From Aestuariivivens insulae (lineage in GTDB: Bacteria; Bacteroidota; Bacteroidia; Flavobacteriales; Flavobacteriaceae): a stretch of 64,000 bases of DNA. Numbering within the stretch: position 1 is the first letter of the stretch; every line of letters begins with the position of its first letter. Below the pieces are notes generated by a model, which saw only the letters and a list, made by a program, of their open reading frames with translations, did no database searches and had not been told where the DNA came from. Positions 2,637-60,627 of this stretch are shown in pieces. The DNA lies in contig NZ_JAKMCS010000007.1 of assembly GCF_022662195.1 (NCBI RefSeq), positions 1-64,000 on the forward strand, written 5' to 3'. The translations under genes and the position numbers were made by a program.

Positions 2637-2921
2637 ATGAAACAGTTTGAGGTCTATAGGAACATTCGTAAACGTGCCTTGATCATGGGACTTCCGGTGT
2701 CGTCATTCGCGCTTATGATGACATCGGTCATCGGTTCCTTGCTGTTCATTATATTTTCCTTCAGCCTGAAAGTAATCATTTCGGTTTTTGCAATCAACGG
2801 CAAACTTTACATCGCATTGACCCATTTGGCCAAGCATCCAACATTGCTGCACTTTAAGCGGGTATTTCCAAAAGCCATTTCAAATAAAAAAACCAGTTTC
2901 CTTGATTATGATGACCATTAA
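2637..2921 (+). CDS. traF: TraF-like conjugal transfer protein (DUF4133)
   Basis: This inner-membrane protein of 94 residues lies between TraE and the TraG ATPase. It starts with a basic cytoplasmic stretch (YRNIRKRALIMGLP), then a hydrophobic block at about residues 21-52 long enough for one or two transmembrane passes, then a polar C-terminus ending DYDDH. This is the layout of DUF4133/TraF, the VirB3-like partner of the VirB4 ATPase in Bacteroidetes conjugation systems. Its 3' end overlaps the start of traG by about 14 bp, supporting coupled translation. I find no residue signature beyond topology and position. Confidence 0.7.
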   Translation: MKQFEVYRNIRKRALIMGLPVSSFALMMTSVIGSLLFIIFSFSLKVIISVFAINGKLYIALTHLAKHPTLLHFKRVFPKAISNKKTSFLDYDDH

Positions 2922-5325
2922 CCTATCTGATAGCCATCCTATATTGGACATCCAGGACAATATTGTGTTTGCCAATAATGGTAATGTGGTGTTATGTTAC
3001 CAGGTTCAATTACCTGAAATCTACTCCTTGTCGGAATCCGATTTTGAAGAACTGCATGGCAGTTGGTTTCAGGCCCTTAAATCCTTGCCAGTAGGTACCA
3101 TCATCCATAAACAGGATATTTACCAAAAAAGGCACTATTCGGCAGAAACCTTACCAAAGACGACCTTTCTGCAACAGGCGACCTATAATTATTTTAAGGA
3201 CCGGGATTGTTTGCAGCACCAAAGCTATTTGTTTTTCATTTTGCCGTTAAACAGAAACCTTAACGTTTCCAAGTATGTCAATCCTTTCAAACAGGTTGGC
3301 AAAACTATTCATAAAACATTGGATCACAAGGTTCAAGAGTTTATAGCTGCTGTGAACGATACCGTGTCATTTATCAATAATGGCAGTAAAATAACCTTAA
3401 CCAATTTAATGGAAAGGGATATCCTCCAGCTTACCAATGCCTATTTTAATGGGTTTAATGAAGGATTTGATACCGACATACAATTGGAACCTACAAAAAA
3501 GGGTAAAAGGAAATCGGTTATGGTGGGAGACCATCATTTTGATGTGTTGGCCATTAATAGTGAACTATGTTTTGGGGATATAGTACAGAGCAGTAAGACC
3601 AATGACAAGTTCACTTCGGATGATTTTGTGTTCCACCAAGGCTTTATCGATGGGCTTGGCCTAAACCTTAACGAGAACCATATTTTGAACCATATCATTT
3701 ATATGGACGATAAACAAAAATGGCGCAAACTACTGGATAAAAAGCTTGAGGAACTTAACAAGAGCTCCAATTTCGGGACACAGAATAAAGTGGTCCTTAA
3801 AAAAATACAACAAATTGTCGATCGGATCAATGAAGATGATACTTCACGTATTATCCGTGGCCATTTGAATGTCATCTTTTGGAACCAGGATTCCCAAGTG
3901 TTAAACAGAATAGCTTCCAAAATAAAAACCGAGTTTAAGGAACTCGATATGCTCCCATATTACCCGAAAGGAGAGGAACGCAAGCATTATTTCCTGAACA
4001 GCCATCCTTGCTTTGCTTCTAACTTTTCCAATGGTGATCTTTATGTCACCGACCTGAAACATGCCCTTTGTCTATACATCAACAATACCAATTACCGGTC
4101 CGATACCACCGGTGTCATCTTTAATGATCGCCAGTTTAATACCCCAGTTTTAAAAGATGTTTGGGACGAGAGAAAAAAAAGGATCAAAGCAAGGAACTTT
4201 GCCATTTTCGCCCCAACGGGAGAGGGCAAGTCCTTTCTGGCCAACAATATTTTAAGACAGTATTTTGAAGACCATGTTCGGCTGGTGATTATTGATCTCG
4301 GTGGCTCTTACGCCAAGTTTGCCAAGCTCTATCCCAATGACCATATCATATTGCGTTACGAGCAGGGCAAAAATTTGGGCATCAACCCATTTTATATTAG
4401 CAACGATGCTGACCTGACCCCGGAATGCCTTGAGGATCTTGCCATTTTTCTATTGGAACTGTTAGCCTTAAGGTCAAGTACCAAGGCCCATGAGGTGGCC
4501 ATAAAAAAGGTACTGTTGTACTATTACAATAGCATCCGAAAGTCTCATTCCTTAGCTTCCCTCTATCAGTTTGTGGATGCCAAAAAGGATACGCTAATCC
4601 AAGAATTGAACGTACAGGAAGAACACTTTAGCGTTTATAATTTTTTGCACATTCTTTCCGAATATGTGGAGGATGGCCTGTACAGCTTTCTCTTTAATGT
4701 CAGTGGGGACCTAACTTATAAAATCGAGGACAAGCGCCTGATCGTTTTTGAACTTGATGAAGTTAAGGACAATAAGGAAATCCTTTCGGTAATGCTCAAG
4801 CTTATCAAATCCGCTATCCAGCGTACCATTTGGCGTAACCGCTCCGAAAGGGGCATCATTCTGTTTGATGAGTTCGCCAAACAACTCAAGTTCGATAATG
4901 TCCTGGAAAGCGTGGAATTCTATTATCAGGCCATTAGGAAGCAGAATGGGGCTATTGGCATCATTCTGCAATCCATTAACCAATTGCCCAGTAATGCTAC
5001 ATCAGCAAGTATTCTGGAGAATACACAGGTTATTTATAGCCTTCGTAATGAAAAAGGCTATGACGAACTGCAAAAGCGCCTTAACCTGTCAAGCCATGAC
5101 CTGAACCAGTTAAGGTCTATCCGTAATAACCTGACCGGATCCCGTAAGTACACCGAAATGTTTATCAAGATCGGGAAGGAGAGCAACATCTTTCGGTTGG
5201 AAGTCCCTCCCGAGGCCTATGCGGCCTATCTAACCGATGGCACTGAAAACGAGGCCATCATGGCCATTTATGAAAGGACGGGCAATATGGAACAAGCAAT
5301 AAAGACCTTTCTAAAGAGATCATAA
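2908..5325 (+). CDS. traG: TraG, VirB4-family conjugation ATPase
   Basis: This cytoplasmic ATPase powers assembly of, and transport through, the type IV secretion channel. The protein is about 805 residues long. The N-terminal domain has the TraG pattern (VLCYQVQLPEIYSLSESDF, then a HKQD motif). The ATPase core has Walker A PTGEGKS with its lysine near residue 441 and Walker B IILFDEF with its aspartate near residue 654, followed by the VirB4-type segment AIGIILQSINQLP. Length is normal for Bacteroidetes TraG (about 800-840). I chose the ATG at 2908. A TTG at 2902 and an ATG at 2911 are alternatives, and all three overlap the end of traF. The gene is intact and central to the operon. Confidence 0.93.
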   Translation: MMTINLSDSHPILDIQDNIVFANNGNVVLCYQVQLPEIYSLSESDFEELHGSWFQALKSLPVGTIIHKQDIYQKRHYSAETLPKTTFLQQATYNYFKDRDCLQHQSYLFFILPLNRNLNVSKYVNPFKQVGKTIHKTLDHKVQEFIAAVNDTVSFINNGSKITLTNLMERDILQLTNAYFNGFNEGFDTDIQLEPTKKGKRKSVMVGDHHFDVLAINSELCFGDIVQSSKTNDKFTSDDFVFHQGFIDGLGLNLNENHILNHIIYMDDKQKWRKLLDKKLEELNKSSNFGTQNKVVLKKIQQIVDRINEDDTSRIIRGHLNVIFWNQDSQVLNRIASKIKTEFKELDMLPYYPKGEERKHYFLNSHPCFASNFSNGDLYVTDLKHALCLYINNTNYRSDTTGVIFNDRQFNTPVLKDVWDERKKRIKARNFAIFAPTGEGKSFLANNILRQYFEDHVRLVIIDLGGSYAKFAKLYPNDHIILRYEQGKNLGINPFYISNDADLTPECLEDLAIFLLELLALRSSTKAHEVAIKKVLLYYYNSIRKSHSLASLYQFVDAKKDTLIQELNVQEEHFSVYNFLHILSEYVEDGLYSFLFNVSGDLTYKIEDKRLIVFELDEVKDNKEILSVMLKLIKSAIQRTIWRNRSERGIILFDEFAKQLKFDNVLESVEFYYQAIRKQNGAIGIILQSINQLPSNATSASILENTQVIYSLRNEKGYDELQKRLNLSSHDLNQLRSIRNNLTGSRKYTEMFIKIGKESNIFRLEVPPEAYAAYLTDGTENEAIMAIYERTGNMEQAIKTFLKRS

Positions 5326-5360
5326 TCAGAATAATTAATAACCCTTAAAACTTTTTTGTA

Positions 5361-5948
5361 ATGAAACACAGATTAAACATTAAAACATTGGTATTGGTAT
5401 TAGCCTTTACCATTTCATTGCCAGGCCTTGCTAAGGCCCAGGGGATGCCGGTGTATGACAATACCAATTTTATCAGCTTGGCCAAGCAGTTGATAGAATC
5501 CGCCAAGCAGACTTCACAGCTATTAAAGACCGTAGAATTCTTGAAACAACAAAAGGAAAATCTGGAGAAGGTCAACAATGTCATTAAGCAGCTCAAGGCG
5601 GTCAAGGAACTCACCAAAAACCATCAACGTCTGTACAGTACTGTGCAAAACGATTTACGGGAGATACTCAACTCTCCTTATATCAAAGCTGATGAAGTGG
5701 GGCGTATATCAGAGACCTTTAGTGATATTATAGACAACTCATTGGAAAGCCTTAATTATATTGAACAGATACTCTCCAGTAATAGCCTTAAAATGGGAGA
5801 TGCCGAACGGGCAGCCATTCTAAAGGAAAAGGAACAACAGTCCAATGAGATGGTGGCCGAGATCGAGGCCAAGGTACGTCGCTACCATGAGATCATTGCA
5901 TTTAGGAAAATGCAGGATGCCGTAAACCATCGTGAAACCAATTATTAG
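5361..5948 (+). CDS. traI: TraI-like conjugal transfer protein (DUF4141, VirB5-like)
   Basis: This is a secreted helical protein of 195 residues. The signal peptide (residues 1-26, ending LAKAQG) is followed by a long, almost continuous alpha-helical, coiled-coil-prone region (for example QTSQLLKTVEFLKQQKENLE) running to about residue 185. The architecture and position between the VirB4 ATPase and the polytopic TraJ match TraI/DUF4141 of Bacteroides conjugative transposons, the likely VirB5-type periplasmic component. It starts 35 bp after traG, and traJ follows after 5 bp. It has nothing to do with the F-plasmid relaxase of the same name. Confidence 0.75.
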   Translation: MKHRLNIKTLVLVLAFTISLPGLAKAQGMPVYDNTNFISLAKQLIESAKQTSQLLKTVEFLKQQKENLEKVNNVIKQLKAVKELTKNHQRLYSTVQNDLREILNSPYIKADEVGRISETFSDIIDNSLESLNYIEQILSSNSLKMGDAERAAILKEKEQQSNEMVAEIEAKVRRYHEIIAFRKMQDAVNHRETNY

Positions 5949-5953
5949 TAGCA

Positions 5954-6790
5954 ATGATGTTTTTAGGGATCGGTCTTGAATATATCGATACGGTGTTTAC
6001 CGTTATCAAAAACAGTGACTTTTCACAGTATACCATTACGGGAATGAAAACGTTGGCTATCATGTTCTTTTTAGTGAACATCCTGAAAAAATACAATGAA
6101 GGGATTGCCTCGACTGATGGGCATACCTGGGGACTGACCCCGACGGAACTGGCCAAGAATTTCTTGATCGTCCTATTGGTGATTTTTTCCACACAGGTAC
6201 TGGATGTGTTTGATGGCATACTGGTAGCCATTGAAGACCGCTACCGGGATACGGCTCCGGCACTCCTTCCATTACAGATGCAGGATATAGACATCGAACA
6301 GGATGTGGGTGCCCTGGAAGCCGCCAAAAAAGCAATGGCCATGTTATATGAGGCCTTGGTTACCCCATTGTATGGTCTTAAGCTTATCAGCTTTATCATT
6401 GGCATATTCCTGTGGCTTCTGGACCTATTTATCTATCCGCTTTTTTTGGCCGAACGTTTTTTCTTGTTGGGCATCATGCAGGCCTTCTTTCCCTTAGTGA
6501 TCAGTCTGGCCGTTTTTGAAAAATTCCGCTCCCTTGCCTATAGTTTTTTTAAGCTCTATGCTGGGGTCTATATGCTGGTGCCAGCTTTTTTTCTGGTAAA
6601 CGTATTTGTCAACAATCTTTATACGGAAGTAAACGATAACTTCTGGAATGAACTCTTTGGAACGGATTGGGGCAGTCAGTTTTTTGCTCCACTTATTCAA
6701 TTGGCCTCCATAGGCTTTATAGTATTGCTAAAGTTCAAGTTGTATCGAAAGGCTATTTCCTTTACCCTCAAATTGTTTGCCGGTAGTTAA
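5954..6790 (+). CDS. traJ: TraJ, VirB6-like conjugation membrane protein
   Basis: This polytopic inner-membrane protein of 278 residues corresponds to the VirB6 channel component. Hydrophobic segments are visible around residues 26-42, 70-88, 132-165, 173-193, 198-220 and 248-266. The central block (SFIIGIFLWLLDLFIYPLFL, then an AERFFLLGIMQAFFPL-type stretch) is typical of TraJ from Bacteroidetes conjugative elements. No signal peptide is present. The start is an ATG pair (MM) at 5954, 5 bp after traI. It is shorter than the 330-residue CTnDOT homologue. Confidence 0.8.
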   Translation: MMFLGIGLEYIDTVFTVIKNSDFSQYTITGMKTLAIMFFLVNILKKYNEGIASTDGHTWGLTPTELAKNFLIVLLVIFSTQVLDVFDGILVAIEDRYRDTAPALLPLQMQDIDIEQDVGALEAAKKAMAMLYEALVTPLYGLKLISFIIGIFLWLLDLFIYPLFLAERFFLLGIMQAFFPLVISLAVFEKFRSLAYSFFKLYAGVYMLVPAFFLVNVFVNNLYTEVNDNFWNELFGTDWGSQFFAPLIQLASIGFIVLLKFKLYRKAISFTLKLFAGS

Positions 6791-6807
6791 TCCCAAAATA
6801 AGCTTAT

Positions 6808-7431
6808 ATGAAAACACCCTATCAAAATATTTATAAAGTTTTAAGACTCAACCGTTTCATTGTACTGGCAATGGTGATTGGAGCAGTTGTCACCTGTATT
6901 GTTTCCCTTATCATGGTGATTAAGCTCCATAAAGAAACCGTAAATAGTGCTTTTGTTGTTAACGGCGAGGGGCAGGTAATACCCTTAAAACTGGTCACCC
7001 AAAGGGAAAGCTTGGAAGTCGAGGCCTTGGCACACCTGGAACTCTTCCATACTTATTTTTACCATATCGATGCAAGCAACTATGAAAAGCATTTACAGAA
7101 AGCCCTATGGCTAGGTAATAGTACCGTCGATGCACTGTACCGCCAAAAGAAAGCAGATGGGGTCTATAATCGGTTGTTGCAGTATTCCCTGGTGCAAAAG
7201 GTGATCAGTATCGATTCCAAAGTCGATCTACAAAAGGAACCTTACCATTTTGAAACCACAACGGTATTTGAGATCAACCGTGGATCTGTTATTGACAGAT
7301 ATGAACTGAAAACTTCGGGAGCACTGATCCATGTGGATCGGCATTTTCCGATTAATACCCATGGACTGTTGATTACCAATTTTTTTGAAAACACTTTAAA
7401 ACGTATAGAACATGAAACTGGAAAAGAATAA
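6808..7431 (+). CDS. traK: TraK, VirB8-like conjugation protein
   Basis: This is a bitopic inner-membrane protein of 207 residues. A short cytoplasmic head (about 15 residues, QNIYKVLRLNRF) precedes one transmembrane helix at about residues 17-38, and the rest is periplasmic. The head sequence and the segment HLELFHTYFYHIDASNYEKH are the usual TraK pattern, and the periplasmic part corresponds to the NTF2-like VirB8 domain that scaffolds the channel. The last 20 bp overlap the start of traM, indicating translational coupling. Confidence 0.85.
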   Translation: MKTPYQNIYKVLRLNRFIVLAMVIGAVVTCIVSLIMVIKLHKETVNSAFVVNGEGQVIPLKLVTQRESLEVEALAHLELFHTYFYHIDASNYEKHLQKALWLGNSTVDALYRQKKADGVYNRLLQYSLVQKVISIDSKVDLQKEPYHFETTTVFEINRGSVIDRYELKTSGALIHVDRHFPINTHGLLITNFFENTLKRIEHETGKE

Positions 7432-8362
7432 AATTGTTTTTATAGCTGTTATAGCTTGTGTAGTTCTGTTTATTGGCGCTTATGCCTCGCTTATGTTGGG
7501 AGAGGAAGAAGCCCCGGTAATAGATGGCAACCAAATTCCCGTACCGAAATTGGATGAGCATAGTCAAAAAAACTTTAAGTCCAAGTTGGAGGCATTGGAT
7601 GCCTTAAAGGACGTACGTCAGACCAATGCCCCGAGTATATATGATGAACGTTTATTGGACTCCACAGGGATTTATGATAAAGACTTATTGAAGAAAGAAA
7701 AGCAACGAATAGTAGATAGCCTTTACAATGATATCCGCTTTATCAATGCCATAGATGATGACCCTGTGCGACAGGATCCTAAAACAAATGAAAGGCTACC
7801 TAATACTAGGGAAAATCAAGAGATTAAGTTTGAACCTGAAACCACGGTGACAGCGCCATACATTCCAGCCCAGGAATTGGCCCTGGAACATCAACTTTTT
7901 TTTGCCTCCGATCCCCAATCCAATCCTATATTGAACGGTCAAAGAACGGATAGTACCATTTATGTTCGGGTGGATGGTACCCAAACCGTAAAAAAGGATT
8001 TCCGACTTGGAATGCGATTGGCCAAACCTGCCCATATTAATGGAGTACTATATCCTAAGAACACTTTTGTTTATGGCTTTGTGAGTTTCAAACCGAACAG
8101 GACCATCATTTCTATACATAACATTGACCACAACCAGGTCAAGCTTAAAGCTTTTGACCTGCAGGATGGAAATGAAGGTGTTTATGTAGAAAATACCTTT
8201 AGGGCAGATGCAACACGTGAGGTCTTTGGTGATGTGGTGGATGATGTTAACATTGCAGGGGTTCCACAGGTAACCGGTATCAAAAAACTGTTTCAGCGCA
8301 ATAACCGCAACATGAAAGTGACCATTCTGGATGACTATCAATTAATTCTAAAGCCTCTTTAA
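7412..8362 (+). CDS. traM: TraM, VirB10-like conjugation protein
   Basis: This protein of 316 residues spans from the inner membrane towards the outer membrane. It has one N-terminal transmembrane helix (residues about 8-29), a polar linker of about 130 residues, and a C-terminal beta-rich domain from about residue 170. That domain contains VRVDGTQTVKKDFRLGMRL, then INGVLYPKNTFVYGFVSF, the TraM signature that replaces the TrbI/VirB10 beta-barrel in Bacteroidetes elements. It is shorter than CTnDOT TraM (about 450 residues), mainly in the linker. The start overlaps traK by 20 bp. Confidence 0.85.
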   Translation: MKLEKNKIVFIAVIACVVLFIGAYASLMLGEEEAPVIDGNQIPVPKLDEHSQKNFKSKLEALDALKDVRQTNAPSIYDERLLDSTGIYDKDLLKKEKQRIVDSLYNDIRFINAIDDDPVRQDPKTNERLPNTRENQEIKFEPETTVTAPYIPAQELALEHQLFFASDPQSNPILNGQRTDSTIYVRVDGTQTVKKDFRLGMRLAKPAHINGVLYPKNTFVYGFVSFKPNRTIISIHNIDHNQVKLKAFDLQDGNEGVYVENTFRADATREVFGDVVDDVNIAGVPQVTGIKKLFQRNNRNMKVTILDDYQLILKPL

Positions 8363-8382
8363 ATCACCTTTAAATATATACT

Positions 8383-9180
8383 ATGAAAACATTAATAACT
8401 TTTCTGTTACTTGTTTTAGTACAGACAACTTTTGCTCAAAAAACATTGGATACACTCTATGCCAATGAACATAAAAATGTAGCCTTGTTTTTCCCAAAAC
8501 CCATTAGACAAGGGATTACAGGAAATACCAATTTTGTATTTACCTATAACCGGGAAAAGGAGCAACATTTTGGATTATTGAAGGCCACACCCGGAAAGGA
8601 AAGTAACCTGCTTGCCATTACCAATGATGGACAGATATATTCATACATTTTGAAATATGCCCATAAATTGCCTAAGCTTAATTATTTTATTGGTACACGA
8701 GCAAGTATCGGTAATGAAAGGCCAAAGCCGATCAAAGTTGTCCCTGATGCCATACCACTTAAAGATAGCATAAGTCAAATAGCACATTATCAAAAATTCT
8801 GTGCCTATCTTTTGAGATCCGATAAAGGCAACTTGGTTACTAAACGAAAGAAAGGAATTAAGCTACGGTTGGAGAAAATGGTTTACAATGGCTCTGAAGT
8901 CTATCTGGTTTTGAATGTACAAAATCAGTCGGGTATTGATTTTGAAATTGATTATTTGGATGTGTTTAAAATTAATGGTAATTCAGGGCGTAAAGCATCT
9001 TTTCAGAAGCTTTGGCAGGAGGTGCTCTATAAACACCGTAGACCTGCAGTAGTCAAGGTTGGGCAATCGAAACGTTTTGTTTATGTCTTGCCAAAATTTG
9101 TTTTAGGGGTGAATGAAAAATTGCAATTGGAGTTATGGGAGTTGAAGGGAAACAGAAAAGTAAATCTAGTCAAACATTAA
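8383..9180 (+). CDS. traN: TraN, VirB9-like conjugation protein (DUF4138)
   Basis: This periplasmic or outer-membrane-associated protein of 265 residues is the last gene of the operon. The signal peptide (residues 1-18, ending TTFAQ) is followed by the DUF4138 pattern: a beta-rich N-terminal half beginning TLYANEHKNVALFFPKPIRQ and a C-terminal half with IDFEIDYLDVFKINGNSGRK and the closing strand region KLQLELWELKGNRKV. It takes the VirB9 position in the core complex. It starts 20 bp after traM and is followed by an intrinsic terminator at 9206. No traL, traO, traP or traQ homologue follows. Confidence 0.85.
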   Translation: MKTLITFLLLVLVQTTFAQKTLDTLYANEHKNVALFFPKPIRQGITGNTNFVFTYNREKEQHFGLLKATPGKESNLLAITNDGQIYSYILKYAHKLPKLNYFIGTRASIGNERPKPIKVVPDAIPLKDSISQIAHYQKFCAYLLRSDKGNLVTKRKKGIKLRLEKMVYNGSEVYLVLNVQNQSGIDFEIDYLDVFKINGNSGRKASFQKLWQEVLYKHRRPAVVKVGQSKRFVYVLPKFVLGVNEKLQLELWELKGNRKVNLVKH

Positions 9181-55203: not shown

Positions 55204-56067
55204 ATGGACATTATGAAAAAAATTACTTTATTGAATTTACTACTTTTCCTTTGTACTTTTTATGGATTTGGACAGACCATGGTGGATGATTTTGAGTCTG
55301 GATCTGGGGGATTGCTTTCGAATGCTGGAAATATCTCAAGTACAGTGGTGACTAATCCGAACCCATCTGGAATAAACACAACTGCTAATTGTTTGGAGCT
55401 TAAGAGAACTTCGGGAACACAGTGGTGGATATTGGCCGGCATTAATGTAGACCCGGATTTAGCAATTTCGAATGCAGAAACTAAATACTTAAGTATGATG
55501 GTGTACTACCCTGCTCAACCAGATTTGGGGTGTCGTTTTGCAGGACCTGATGATAATACAAATGGTGCTGGTGGGTCAGAAGTTAGAGCTTTAAACACTT
55601 ACAAACAACCATTTAACACGTGGCAGGAAATTGTTTTTGAGATTAAAGATAACACAGCTGCAACTTCATTCAATTATGGTACTTTGTATAGAATAGATTT
55701 TCATCCTGATATGGGATTTCAAAATGATCCTGTAGGACAAGTGTTAAGTGATCCAACAATAGCTGGGTATATCGATCAAATCCAAATTTTGGATTCTAAT
55801 CCTTTATTGAGTACTTCAGATTTTGAAATAAATAATGATATATCATTATATCCAAATCCAACGCAATCAGAATTTACTATTAAGGCCAATAATAGAACAA
55901 AAATTTCTAGTGTTTCGATATTTAATACCCTAGGAACCAAAATCGATGATGTCATAAGTCTATCAGAAAACAAATATGACATTAGCCATTTGTCTTCAGG
56001 TTTATATTTGGTTAAAGTTTTTGGTAATGATGGAACAGCAACGACTATGAAGTTGTTGAAAAATTAG
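55204..56067 (+). CDS. Type IX-sorted protein with probable carbohydrate-binding jelly roll
   Basis: This is a secreted protein of 287 residues. The signal peptide (about 1-24 from ATG 55204, ending FGFGQ) is followed by a beta-rich domain of about 170 residues beginning MVDDFESGSGGL. Such DDFE-starting modules in Bacteroidota are often carbohydrate-binding jelly rolls. Here NTWQEIVFEIKD and IDFHPDMGF resemble that group. The C-terminal 75 residues (ISLYPNPTQSEFTIKANN to MKLLKN) form a type A sorting domain. The protein is thus probably anchored at the surface as a binding protein. A second start at 55213 (MKK) is equally good. Confidence 0.75.
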   Translation: MDIMKKITLLNLLLFLCTFYGFGQTMVDDFESGSGGLLSNAGNISSTVVTNPNPSGINTTANCLELKRTSGTQWWILAGINVDPDLAISNAETKYLSMMVYYPAQPDLGCRFAGPDDNTNGAGGSEVRALNTYKQPFNTWQEIVFEIKDNTAATSFNYGTLYRIDFHPDMGFQNDPVGQVLSDPTIAGYIDQIQILDSNPLLSTSDFEINNDISLYPNPTQSEFTIKANNRTKISSVSIFNTLGTKIDDVISLSENKYDISHLSSGLYLVKVFGNDGTATTMKLLKN

Positions 56068-56111
56068 GTTTAATTAATTTAAAATTTTATCATCATCCTA
56101 TAAGACGGTAC

Positions 56112-56293
56112 AACTCTTAATTTTTAATCTTCTAAGCGATTTTGCAAATTTTTACTTCGCCGTGAGGGATTAAGAGTTTTACTTAGAAGAAGGTTTGGAC
56201 ATGTCCATTTCCATTGCTCCTGTTGCATTTAAGCTGTGTCGTGAGCTTGAATAGACATTCTTCATGACACAATTGGGGATGGACATGTCCAAA
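56112..56293. repeat. Cluster of nested and interleaved inverted repeats
   Basis: Four inverted pairs lie within 182 bp. AACTCTTAAT (56112-56121) pairs with ATTAAGAGTT (56169-56178). TCTTCTAAG (56128-56136) pairs with CTTAGAAGA (56182-56190), interleaved with the first. TTTGGACATGTCCAT (56194-56208) pairs with ATGGACATGTCCAAA (56279-56293), each half itself containing the palindrome TGGACATGTCCA. Inside that, TGTGTCGTGA (56235-56244) pairs with TCATGACACA (56262-56271) at nine of ten bases. This is far more pairing than the flanking AT-rich DNA shows. It could be a structured RNA, a small non-autonomous element or a protein-binding region. Confidence 0.75.
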
Positions 56294-57110
56294 TTTTAGG
56301 GCATGTTTGTCCACTGCTTTGATTTCCTTAGTGGTATTATCGGTAGTCTAGCTAGGTCATATCTAAAAAACAAGCCATTGTCTTCTGGATTTAAGGGGTT
56401 TAACATTGGGTAAAGCCTTTGTTTGTTTTTCTAGGCATCAAAAAACAGGCTTTACATGACTAATACTGGTGTAACCATATTTGATTATTATCTTAACTGC
56501 CCGAACACTCATACCCAATTGAATTTAAAAGAATTGCTAATGCCCAATGGAACTTGTCAAGATTGCAACAAGTTTTAGGAAAAAATAAGGTTTCTACCTC
56601 ATTGAAAACCCAATTTATCCATTAGTGCTTCGCACTTAATAAATCATACAAACACTCCTTAAACTTTAATTACACTATCAAAAGTGTGACGATCCTAACA
56701 TAATTGAATGGAAGAAAAAATGAATTGAAAATTGCTGTTAGGGATAAAGCAAGGGCAGGTACATCTATTAAACATTTCATTTATTTATGATTAGAGTTTT
56801 AGTTTTTATTGTTGTCTATAGTTCTTTGGAAACCATAATAAGAAAGTAATAGGTTGTTTAAATACAGGAAATAGGCATTGCAAATATTCAAAAAAGCAGA
56901 ATACCAAAGACCTTATTCCTAGGTGTGATTTTTGAAAACTTATTTTAATTGCACATGATATTATTTAAACAATTTATTAAATAAATATTGTGTTAGAATT
57001 GTCGGCCAATACAACGTTGGTAATTATAGTTTGCAATGAGATTAATACGGTTTATGATAATGTAGATGAATTGAATTTAAATGGCTGAATTTTTTTTTAA
57101 AATTATCTAA
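56294..57110. other. Long gene-free region before the GntR gene
   Basis: No supported gene is seen. A frame of 40 codons (56456-56578, ending CQDCNKF) is short and unrecognised. AAAGCCT at 56413-56419 pairs with AGGCTTT at 56447-56453, part of an imperfect hairpin. The rest is AT-rich and without visible structure. It may contain a decayed gene. Confidence 0.35.
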
Positions 57111-57125
57111 AGGATAGAACAGGAT
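57111..57125. promoter_or_regulatory. Candidate GntR operator box 1
   Basis: AGGATAGAACAGGAT is a direct repeat of AGGAT with a 5-base spacer, about 80-100 bp before the GntR-type gene. The identical 15-mer is found before the third susC. Repeats one helical turn apart are compatible with binding of a dimeric regulator. Confidence 0.6.
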
Positions 57126-57205
57126 GGGGTCTAAAAAAAAAAAAACTTTCTTTGATGAATTCAATTTTATAATAGTTGCTTGTTGAAGGTGTTTTACTAT
57201 TGGTA

Positions 57206-58228
57206 ATGTTTAATCTAAATAACAATATGATTGATAATAACATTGTGCTAAGAAACTTAAATGGAAATGAAAGTCCAAAGTACATCAAAATAATTAGTGC
57301 AATTAAGGAAGCTATAGAAATTAATAAACTTAAATTCGGAGACAGAATACCATCAATTAATGAATTTAGCAAGGGTTATAAGGTATCAAGAGATACAGTT
57401 TACAAGGCCTATACTTTATTGAAAAAAGAAGGTTATATTCAGTCAACGCCTAATAAAGGATATTATATATCAAAAAGCACCAGAAAAATACTGCTTTTAA
57501 TTAGTACGTTTAAGGCATATAAAGAGGTGTTTTATCATTCTTTTATGAATTGCTTACCCGAAAATGTTATAGTTGATTTACAGTTTCACCATTATAATAT
57601 AAAGAATTTTAAATCCATGATAGATGTAGATAATGCTAAGTACTATAAATATATCGTTATGGGCTTTGATCACCCTGATGTTTATGGGGTACTTTCCAAA
57701 ATTGATAAAAAAAAACTCTTGCTTATTGATTGGAAGGCTAACTTGGAAGGATTTGAAAACTATATATATCAAGATTTTGGTAAGGCTTTTTATTCATGTT
57801 TGCAAGAAGCTAAGTCTTTGTTTTCTAAATATAGAAAACTCATGTTTGTTTATCCAGAATTTACCCACCATCCTTACGAAAGTGTAGTTTATTTTGAAAA
57901 GTTCTGTGTTTCAAATGGTTTTGAATTTGGAGTTTGTGAAAATTCTAAGAAATTGTCGGTCGAAAAAGACACGGCATATATTAGTGTGAACGATCGTATT
58001 TTGTATAAACTTTTAAACCAATGTAATGATGAACATCTAGAAATTGGTAAGGATGTGGGCATTTTATCATATAATGATACTCCATTAAAGAAGTTTACTT
58101 ATAAAGGTATAACGGTTGTCTCTATAGATTTTAAGGAATTCGGTGCTAAAGTGGCCAATTTTATTACTTCCGATCAAATATTGGCATCTTATTTAAATAC
58201 GGAATTAATATTAAGGGATTCTTTATAA
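57206..58228 (+). CDS. GntR-family regulator with C-terminal sugar-sensing-like domain
   Basis: This is a transcriptional regulator of about 340 residues. The winged helix is at about 20-85 (PKYIKIISAIKEAIEINKLK, then IPSINEFSKGYKVSRDTVYK and a wing GYIQSTPNKGYYISKS). The C-terminal domain of about 250 residues is of the periplasmic-binding-protein/LacI type (YIVMGFDHPD; VGILSYNDTPL; ITVVSIDFKEFG near the end), a known combination in Bacteroidota. The start is taken as ATG 57206. ATG 57227 is the alternative, and TTG 57176 is less likely. It precedes genes for uronate catabolism, and 15-bp direct-repeat boxes are found before it and downstream genes, so it probably controls that set in response to a sugar or sugar acid. 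Confidence 0.88.
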   Translation: MFNLNNNMIDNNIVLRNLNGNESPKYIKIISAIKEAIEINKLKFGDRIPSINEFSKGYKVSRDTVYKAYTLLKKEGYIQSTPNKGYYISKSTRKILLLISTFKAYKEVFYHSFMNCLPENVIVDLQFHHYNIKNFKSMIDVDNAKYYKYIVMGFDHPDVYGVLSKIDKKKLLLIDWKANLEGFENYIYQDFGKAFYSCLQEAKSLFSKYRKLMFVYPEFTHHPYESVVYFEKFCVSNGFEFGVCENSKKLSVEKDTAYISVNDRILYKLLNQCNDEHLEIGKDVGILSYNDTPLKKFTYKGITVVSIDFKEFGAKVANFITSDQILASYLNTELILRDSL

Positions 58229-58584
58229 AACAGCAGTCCATACTTTATTGAAAGTAGGATCTTATTGGACGGGGAATAACTACAAATTCCTTGAAGAGGT
58301 GCATGGATTGGTTACGTTTTTTTATATGCTTTTCACAGGACACAGCAGGACAGTTTGGCTGGCCTTGTTTAATAATTTTGTTATAACACCACTTAGTTCG
58401 GGAAGGTTTTCTTTTTAACTTTTTTAAACCCCATAAGTGGAGGTATTTGTCGATGTGACATCAGTTTAATAGGCTAATAATTCAGTATCGTGTAATTAGG
58501 AATGAAATTGATTGTACTGCATTGAAACACCAATTCAATTTTTGAAATTAATATAATATCAGGTGATTAATAAAATTTAAACGA
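58229..58584. other. Intergenic region between GntR gene and SDR gene
   Basis: No gene is seen. The stretch contains candidate operator box 2 and a 7-bp inverted pair CCACTTA/TAAGTGG spanning about 58393-58440. It should carry the promoter of the SDR-uxuA operon. Confidence 0.4.
58337..58351. promoter_or_regulatory. Candidate GntR operator box 2 (diverged)
   Basis: AGGACACAGCAGGAC matches box 1 at 11 of 15 positions and keeps both AGGA direct repeats with the same 10-base spacing. It lies about 235 bp before the SDR gene, in a region without genes. Confidence 0.45.
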
Positions 58585-59412
58585 ATGAAAAAAACAATTG
58601 TAATAACAGGAGCTGGAGGTGTATTATGTAGTACTTTGGCAGAGGCATTGGCCATGGAAGGTCATAAAGTTGCCTTATTGGATTTGAATAAGGAATCTGC
58701 AATTGCTGCTGCAAAAAACATTAAGGACAAAGGGGGTGAAGCTATTGGAGTTGAAGCTAATGTTTTGGATGAAGCGTCTTTAAGGCAGGCAAAACAAGAG
58801 GTAAACAATGTTTTTGGTAAATGTGATATCCTTCTTAATGGAGCAGGGGGAAATCATCCTTTAGGAACTACTAGTGATCCATTTTTACAAGAGGATGATT
58901 TAAAGATCAAAGTTGAAGGGTTTAAAACGTTTTTTGATTTGGATCCGGATGGAATACAGTTCGTGTTCAATTTAAATTTTATAGGAACCTTATTGCCCAC
59001 ACAAATTTTTGCGCAAGATATGGTTGGTAGAAATAACTGTAGTATTTTAAATATTTCATCAATGAATGCTTTTAAGCCTTTAACAAAAATACCAGCATAC
59101 AGTGGGGCTAAGGCGGCGGTATCTAACTTTACCCAATGGTTAGCAGTGCACTTTTCAAAAGTGAATATACGTGTTAATGCCTTGGCGCCTGGGTTTTTCT
59201 TAACGGAACAAAACCGAACCTTGTTAACTAATGGTGACGGTAGTTTAACATCTCGTGGAAATCAAATAATTGAGAGAACTCCTATGGGCAAATTTGGCAA
59301 GCCAGAAGATTTAATAGGTACAACGTTATGGTTATGCGGAGAAGAGGCTTCATTTGTAACAGGAATTGTTGTTCCTATTGATGGAGGGTTTAGCGCATAT
59401 AGTGGCATTTAG
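58585..59412 (+). CDS. SDR oxidoreductase, probable D-mannonate oxidoreductase (fructuronate reductase)
   Basis: This is a cytoplasmic NAD(P)-dependent short-chain dehydrogenase of 275 residues. The nucleotide-binding motif is TGAGGVLC (8-15), with the last canonical glycine replaced as usual in this subgroup. NGAGG (85-89) matches the NNAG position. The catalytic residues are S158 or S159 in NISSM, Y172 and K176 in YSGAK. The C-terminus has GKPEDLIGTTLWLCGEEASF and IDGGFSAYSG. It is 30 bp before mannonate dehydratase, so interconversion of fructuronate and mannonate is the likely reaction. It would replace the unrelated long-chain UxuB. Confidence 0.85.
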   Translation: MKKTIVITGAGGVLCSTLAEALAMEGHKVALLDLNKESAIAAAKNIKDKGGEAIGVEANVLDEASLRQAKQEVNNVFGKCDILLNGAGGNHPLGTTSDPFLQEDDLKIKVEGFKTFFDLDPDGIQFVFNLNFIGTLLPTQIFAQDMVGRNNCSILNISSMNAFKPLTKIPAYSGAKAAVSNFTQWLAVHFSKVNIRVNALAPGFFLTEQNRTLLTNGDGSLTSRGNQIIERTPMGKFGKPEDLIGTTLWLCGEEASFVTGIVVPIDGGFSAYSGI

Positions 59413-59442
59413 TATTAATTTGTAAAAGCTTAGCGACACAAG

Positions 59443-60627
59443 ATGGAACAAACATGGAGATGGTATGGGCCAAATGATCCCGTAACCTTATCAGATATAA
59501 AGCAGGCGGGAGCTACAGGGGTGGTTTCGGCATTGCATCATATTCCTAATGGAGAGATATGGACGATTGAAGAGATACAAAAAAGAAAAAATATCATAGA
59601 GCAAGCTGGATTGATTTGGAGCGTCGTTGAAAGTATTCCTGTTCATGAAAATATAAAAACACGTTCCGGTAATTACAATACCTATATAGAACATTACCAA
59701 AAGAGTATAGAAAACTTAGCGTATTGTGGTGTTAAGATTGTATGTTATAACTTTATGCCGGTATTGGATTGGACGCGTACTGATTTGGGTTTTGAAGTTG
59801 AAGATGGTTCCAAAGCTTTGCGTTTTGATATGACTGCTTTTGCGGCATTTGAATTGTATTTATTAAACCGGCCAGGAGCAGAATGTAATTACTCTGAAGC
59901 ACAGCAAAGGACAGCAAAGAAATATGTGGATAATCTATCTGAAGAAGCAAAAGCACAACTTATAAATAATATTATTGCAGGTCTTCCAGGAGCTGAAGAG
60001 GGTTATACTTTGGAGCAGTTTCAAAGTGTTTTGGATACTTACAATGATATTGATGCCAAGACCCTTAGGGAGAATTTAGTATCGTTTTTAAAAGAAATTA
60101 TTCCAGTGGCATCTAAAAATGATGTTTTAATGTGTATTCATCCAGACGACCCTCCCTATCCCATCTTGGGTTTGCCGAGAGTGGTCAGTACAGAAGCAGA
60201 TTATGCATACTTGTTCGAGAGTGTTCCAGATAGGTCTAATGGCATTACATTTTGTACAGGTTCATTAGGGGTGAGGGCAGATAATAATTTGCCACAAATA
60301 TTTAGGCGGTTTGCAGATAGAGCTCATTTTCTACATTTAAGAAGCACTAAGCGTGATGAACATGGCAATTTTTACGAAGCGAATCATCTGGAAGGCGATG
60401 TCGATATGTATGCCGTAATAAAAGAAATCCTTGTTGAGGAAAAAAGGAGAAGGGATCTGGGGTATGATCACTCGATCATTCCCGTAAGACCTGATCATGG
60501 ACACCAAATGTTGGATGATTTAAACAAAAGAACTAATCCTGGATATTCTGGGATTGGAAGGTTAAGGGGCTTGGCAGAACTGCGGGGCTTAGAGTTTGGA
60601 ATTAGTAAAAGTCTGGATTATGAGTAA
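59443..60627 (+). CDS. uxuA: Mannonate dehydratase UxuA
   Basis: This is a cytoplasmic metal-dependent enzyme of 394 residues that dehydrates D-mannonate to 2-keto-3-deoxygluconate in glucuronate catabolism. It is full length. Family landmarks are [20 protein letters not shown] at the start, [32 protein letters not shown] (about 102-115), [20 protein letters not shown] (about 227-246), [23 protein letters not shown] and [11 protein letters not shown] with [17 protein letters not shown] near the end. The upstream SDR would supply mannonate from fructuronate. Later steps (KDG kinase, KDPG aldolase) and the isomerase UxaC are not in this window. Confidence 0.96.

Follow-up and report, generated by a model that had tools for sequence, protein, structure and literature searches.

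The window, by which we mean the whole 64,000-nucleotide stretch analyzed here, opens at the start of its contig with ICE tra genes on the plus strand (2908–9180), where Pfam identified TraG P-loop, TraM and DUF4138/TraN alongside neighboring genes. The tra genes are followed by a polysaccharide-degradation run of ~120 kb (SusC/D-like, GH30, GH2, GH16, sulfatases), and the block of inverted repeats studied here (56112–56293) lies within it; this polysaccharide utilization locus is possibly ICE-borne or ICE-adjacent. Downstream of the block, 57206–60627 encodes a GntR-type regulator with a sugar-binding-like domain, then an SDR oxidoreductase and mannonate dehydratase (UxuA), which together form a uronate-use operon. 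A separate perfect 15-bp inverted repeat, AT-rich, spans the start of the gene at 55204 (55105–55119/55222–55236).

The inverted repeats of the block are far above chance. Repeat A/A′ (10 bp) pairs 56112–56121 with 56169–56178 and repeat B/B′ (9 bp) pairs 56128–56136 with 56182–56190, so that the two are interleaved in the order A B A′ B′. Next to them stands a nested hairpin whose outer arms, 56194–56208 and 56279–56293, form a perfect 15-bp pair that is still 90% matched when lengthened to 20 nt; both arms contain the palindrome TGGACATGTCCA (56196–56207 and 56280–56291). All arms were re-located where the earlier note on this DNA had placed them, and the interleaved order and the lack of an open frame across the block, both claimed there, were confirmed. 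None of 3000 dinucleotide shuffles produced an interleaved 10 + 9 bp pair, which is unique within the 64 kb, and a perfect inverted repeat of at least 15 bp was likewise reached in 0/3000. When folded as RNA, 56100–56300 gave −71.4 kcal/mol on the plus strand (z = −7.4 against shuffles) and −54.4 kcal/mol on the minus strand (z = −5.9).

DNA searches found the block to be single-copy in its own genome. The palindrome TGGACATGTCCA occurs once more in that genome, within a copper-ATPase-like coding sequence, and this occurrence is therefore unrelated to the block. Searching 60 relatives with the block alone returned chance-level matches only, as did the entire intergenic gap when searched against phage and plasmid records, and the exact paired-palindrome pattern was absent from the other 396 of 397 family genomes. 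Rfam covariance models run against the window matched eukaryotic or archaeal families, at chance level only. The earlier note had suggested a BLASTN search for other copies and had held that a lack of homologues elsewhere would argue against an RNA gene or mobile repeat. Homologues do exist; they were reached through the neighboring segment 56351–56671 and then through a covariance model.

Within this segment, 56413–56595 matched a second site in the same genome (locus L015) with an E-value of 3e-17. The L015 core follows a tyrosine recombinase gene (Pfam) at ~90 bp and precedes a gene for a small mobilization-type protein, the latter without a Pfam match and named by eye from its sequence. 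Relatives of the L015 site were present in 43 of 299 family genomes, and named genome contigs contained the exact 20-base family motif in at least 119 stretches, nearly all of them from Flavobacteriaceae. An intact homologue matched nothing among 72,556 plasmid records or the phage records, the exact motif had no match in IMG/VR, and Rfam covariance models did not match L015 or 12 homologues. We found no earlier description of the module in the open-access library searched.

The position of the module is constant. An ssb gene, confirmed as SSB by Pfam, lies downstream in 98 of the 108 copies with enough sequence, nearly always ~390–410 nt from the motif, whilst about 9% of family copies, like that in the window, have no ssb at the expected place. 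In one of the family loci (L129, about 990–1700), transposase-like genes follow directly after the core where ssb would be expected, and such insertion may be one route to orphan copies. By Pfam, a DUF6876 or RadC gene comes after ssb and DUF932 lies upstream of the module. The wider order, ParB – DUF932 – cargo – module – ssb – DUF6876/RadC – oriT candidate – small mobilization protein – relaxase – coupling protein – tra, was drawn from four ICE neighborhoods and is most complete in two, with tra, relaxase, coupling and other non-Pfam assignments made by eye. The conjugation genes of intact ICEs are on the strand opposite to ssb. The module is thus a fixed component of an ICE family. The oriT candidate is a conserved non-coding stretch 5′ of the small mobilization gene (L183:15711–16001, continuing in L184:1–352, and also at about 2066–2108 of L015), and AGCAAGAGGGTA within it is common even to an ssb-less element.

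The block is the upstream half of a diverged copy, ~570 bp in length (about 56100–56671), of this conserved non-coding ICE module of Flavobacteriaceae. It very probably represents the hairpin part of an orphan copy, one that has diverged and lost some of its sequence, of a ~700-nt non-coding module; in Flavobacteriaceae ICEs this module stands directly 5′ of ssb and separates the cargo hot spot from the transfer genes. The conserved module core (56351–56613, plus strand) carries the family motif CATTTTAAGGGGTTTATAAT...AAAAGAATTGCTAATGCCC...GGAACTTGTCAAGAC; about 30 homologues match it at 71–80% identity, with E-values down to about 4e-51. The 3′ part (56605–56671, plus strand) resumes after a ~50–70-nt deletion, and with it included, 56351–56671 is 71–84% identical to the module core and 3′ part. 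In the family, ssb would begin about 50–80 nt further on. The corresponding site in the window (56672–57205) lacks ssb and precedes the GntR-family regulator (ATG at 57206), and tblastn found neither ssb nor an ssb pseudogene at 56000–57300 or across the whole window.

The interleaved repeats occupy the 5′ flank of the module (56108–56190). The conserved family flank GGGAAAAGAGCTTCACTACAAA can be aligned here to 56165–56190; its window equivalent, GGGATTAAGAGTTTTACTTAGAAG, supplies the right-hand arms of both A/A′ and B/B′, and the left arms are window-specific. Some family members have a shorter counterpart of A/A′ (GCTCTT...AAGAGC), in which the flank pairs with an upstream GCTCTT, and no counterpart of B/B′ was seen in the family. 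The pseudoknot geometry recognized in the earlier note is thus present in the window, but is peculiar to it.

The nested hairpin, noted earlier as a 100-bp structure, corresponds to the long hairpin B of the family (56190–56298, minus relative to the family ssb direction) and is the positional counterpart of the family hairpin TTGGAC...GTCC. A covariance model of that hairpin, R1, was built from 53 copies with the window excluded. With filters off, its best match in the 64 kb was 56165–56296 on the minus strand (19.5 bits, E 0.008), a score that is modest against the 50–160 bits of most family copies. The match covers the full model length in the family orientation and adjoins the core; it was not among the results of a genome-wide R1 search. 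A sequence-only profile (nhmmer) did not detect the nested hairpin in the window; its top window match (E 0.05) was instead a remnant of a further hairpin, C (56312–56383, plus strand), which has an internal deletion and was also placed by the family fold. In the family, C is a second conserved hairpin directly 5′ of the core, and the long hairpin B lies beyond it.

The covariation analysis proposed in the earlier note was carried out on the family copies, where hairpin B covaries and pairs better on the minus strand than on the plus strand. Standard pairs filled 91.5% of the cells on minus, a share that fell to 57% when the partner was shifted by one column, and both sides had changed in 11 of 29 pairs; 0/500 shuffles reached any of the five measures. 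On the plus strand the standard share was 78.9%. Wobble-type mismatches that pair on one strand only, counted with no folding rule, numbered 234 for minus and 49 for plus; automatic arm anchoring missed 20 of 92 copies in this count, most of which were later recovered by the covariance model. RNA energies made minus the more stable fold in 65/66 copies and DNA energies did so in 63/66, and composition-aware z-scores also favored it (median −3.1 versus −2.2, 40 copies). Hairpin C showed the same wobble bias (69 versus 22), and RNAalifold energies were lower on the minus strand for the C, core and 3′ segments. These were computed segment by segment, as RNAalifold found almost no structure in the whole 756-column alignment, in which the variable hairpin arms misalign. 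The strand counts are not independent, the copies being related and a few columns supplying most of the wobbles. The minus strand is the template strand of ssb; the earlier note had described the plus strand, and in the family it is the opposite one on which the structure forms better.

Extra hairpins are common. Counted by hand, 35 of 100 loci hold 39 extra copies between them, which all share one orientation and are mostly tandem duplicates; several that lie dispersed are 26–361 nt 5′ of codirectional cargo genes. The hairpin often occurs as two to three tandem copies, about 210–230 nt apart, 5′ of the core (L133, L174, L159, L120, L183 and others). A coarse test of 91 hairpin copies for promoter motifs at a conserved position (TAnnTTTG, TTGACA, TATAAT) found none. 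Flavobacteriaceae promoters differ from the −35/−10 consensus tested.

Unlike the family, the window copy is more stable on the plus strand, and parts of hairpin C and of the 3′ region are missing from it. With no ssb, partial deletion and a better fold on the other strand, it has probably been freed from the constraint acting on the family, and most likely persists as a relic in a polysaccharide-utilization cluster near an ICE tra module. The copy and the tra genes of the window point the same way, whereas ssb is opposite to tra in intact ICEs; the copy may therefore come from another ICE than those genes, and we do not claim a common origin. Further traces are present in the same genome, namely the core at L015 and a hairpin at L191 (E 1.5e-6), as well as an ssb-RadC-mobilization-relaxase set with neither core nor hairpin. 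The L191 hairpin (L191:1501–1580; G000:C11) is a second, compact relic beside mobilization-type gene fragments.

On balance, the explanation that we consider best, and somewhat probable, is that the block is a relic of an ICE module whose hairpins act as folded ssDNA in transfer. The preference for the minus strand and the layout of hairpin, ssb, oriT candidate and relaxase together suggest a folded, single-stranded transfer strand, and the placement, opposite the relaxase, of the stretch from oriT candidate to cargo suggests a leading region. If so, the template strand of ssb (minus) would be first to enter the recipient. A hairpin folded on that strand could serve as a single-strand promoter, a priming site (Frpo/ssi- or sso-like) or both, such that ssb and other leading genes, the second strand, or both would be made at once on entry; extra hairpins of the same orientation stand before cargo genes. 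We infer here which strand is transferred, that ssDNA is the acting form and that the role is that of a promoter or priming site, with the polarity and nick site taken from the layout only. By analogy with known systems, this mechanism for intact ICEs, with hairpins acting as folded ssDNA on the first-entering strand, is plausible, though we lean slightly to doubt. More tentatively, and with the chances rather against it, the module could be a previously undescribed and unusually large ssDNA regulatory module that, through several covarying hairpins of the transferred strand, activates ssb and the cargo genes in the recipient ahead of second-strand synthesis; it would then be a counterpart of Frpo that evolved independently in another phylum and has spare hairpins before cargo genes.

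The wobble asymmetry fits an RNA made from the minus strand as well as ssDNA and cannot separate the two. The block could be a diverged domain of a large structured non-coding RNA, an ICE-borne ornate RNA transcribed divergently from ssb, since an RNA would be expected to show such minus-strand covariation, wobble pairs included, along all of the ~700 nt. We consider this unlikely, as Rfam gave no match, hairpin B varies in number (0–3 tandem copies) and is also found without the core, unlike a domain of one RNA, and no terminator-like T run was seen on inspection of the far end. The structured RNA guessed at in the earlier note survives insofar as the block is a structured nucleic acid with a covarying family hairpin; a self-contained small RNA does not. 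The constant distance to ssb would also suit a cis-acting leader of that gene, working as dsDNA or mRNA (an operator, attenuator or riboregulator), but pairing is clearly worse on the plus (mRNA) strand than on the minus strand and extra copies lie 5′ of other, unrelated genes, which makes such a leader quite unlikely.

Integron attC sites form imperfect hairpins on the bottom strand and lie between cargo genes that point the same way. The hairpins described here share this arrangement: they are imperfect, keep pairing more than sequence, prefer one strand and are scattered in one orientation between cargo genes, as they would be if they recombined single-stranded at a recombination or cassette-capture site and punctuated the cargo region. 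However, no RYYYAAC/GTTRRRY core boxes were seen when alignments A2 and A3 were read by eye, and the hairpins lie 188–331 nt after the preceding gene, usually in tandem beside ssb and without the spacing of one site per gene, so that an attC-like site is improbable. Least credible, to the point of being nearly dismissed, are a palindromic element of the MITE or REP type and a multi-site operator serving the GntR regulator: despite the palindromic halves TGGACATGTCCA and a regulator gene 900 bp downstream, the block lacks the multiple copies of a MITE, its paired palindromes are confined to this one genome among the 397 of the family searched and its flanking homology makes it part of a larger module, so that of the earlier note's small palindromic mobile element only the link to mobile elements stands (as one module of a large ICE), and its operator is not borne out.

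If the family does act on the transferred strand, as in the ssDNA reading that we favor, it would offer the first testable entry-stage control site for the conjugative elements of marine Flavobacteriaceae, whose ICEs carry metal-resistance and other cargo and, in the window, lie near polysaccharide-degradation genes. Single-stranded DNA promoters or priming sites would then extend past the proteobacterial and Firmicutes cases. The module can also be used as a marker of ICE boundaries and relics, and here reveals an ICE trace within a sugar-degradation cluster.

The module family would be new, whilst hairpins acting as ssDNA on conjugative elements are already known, and we do not claim membership of Frpo or sso for it. 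The account of Frpo/ssi in PMC11541004 (citing Masai and Arai, 1997), in the part that concerns us, is of folded single-stranded promoters of F-type conjugative plasmids, one of them directly 5′ of an ssb gene. As far as that account goes, both systems have imperfect hairpins in a transfer-element region beside mobilization genes, upstream of ssb and in more than one copy (PMC11541004), and the strand-specific folding of the family, although not of the window copy, fits an entering strand used as template. Against the same account, the module is much larger, has several hairpins, resides on ICEs and belongs to another phylum, with no −35/−10 seen in its stem and no DNA match in the 72,556 plasmid records. 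The sso single-strand origins occur on rolling-circle plasmids and ICEBs1, where sso1 was found by its similarity to plasmid sso's (PMC4595007). Sequence similarity to these would not be expected of the module, for which a priming role is a candidate by analogy; what the two have in common is a folded ssDNA site on an ICE, proposed for the conversion of incoming ssDNA (PMC4595007).
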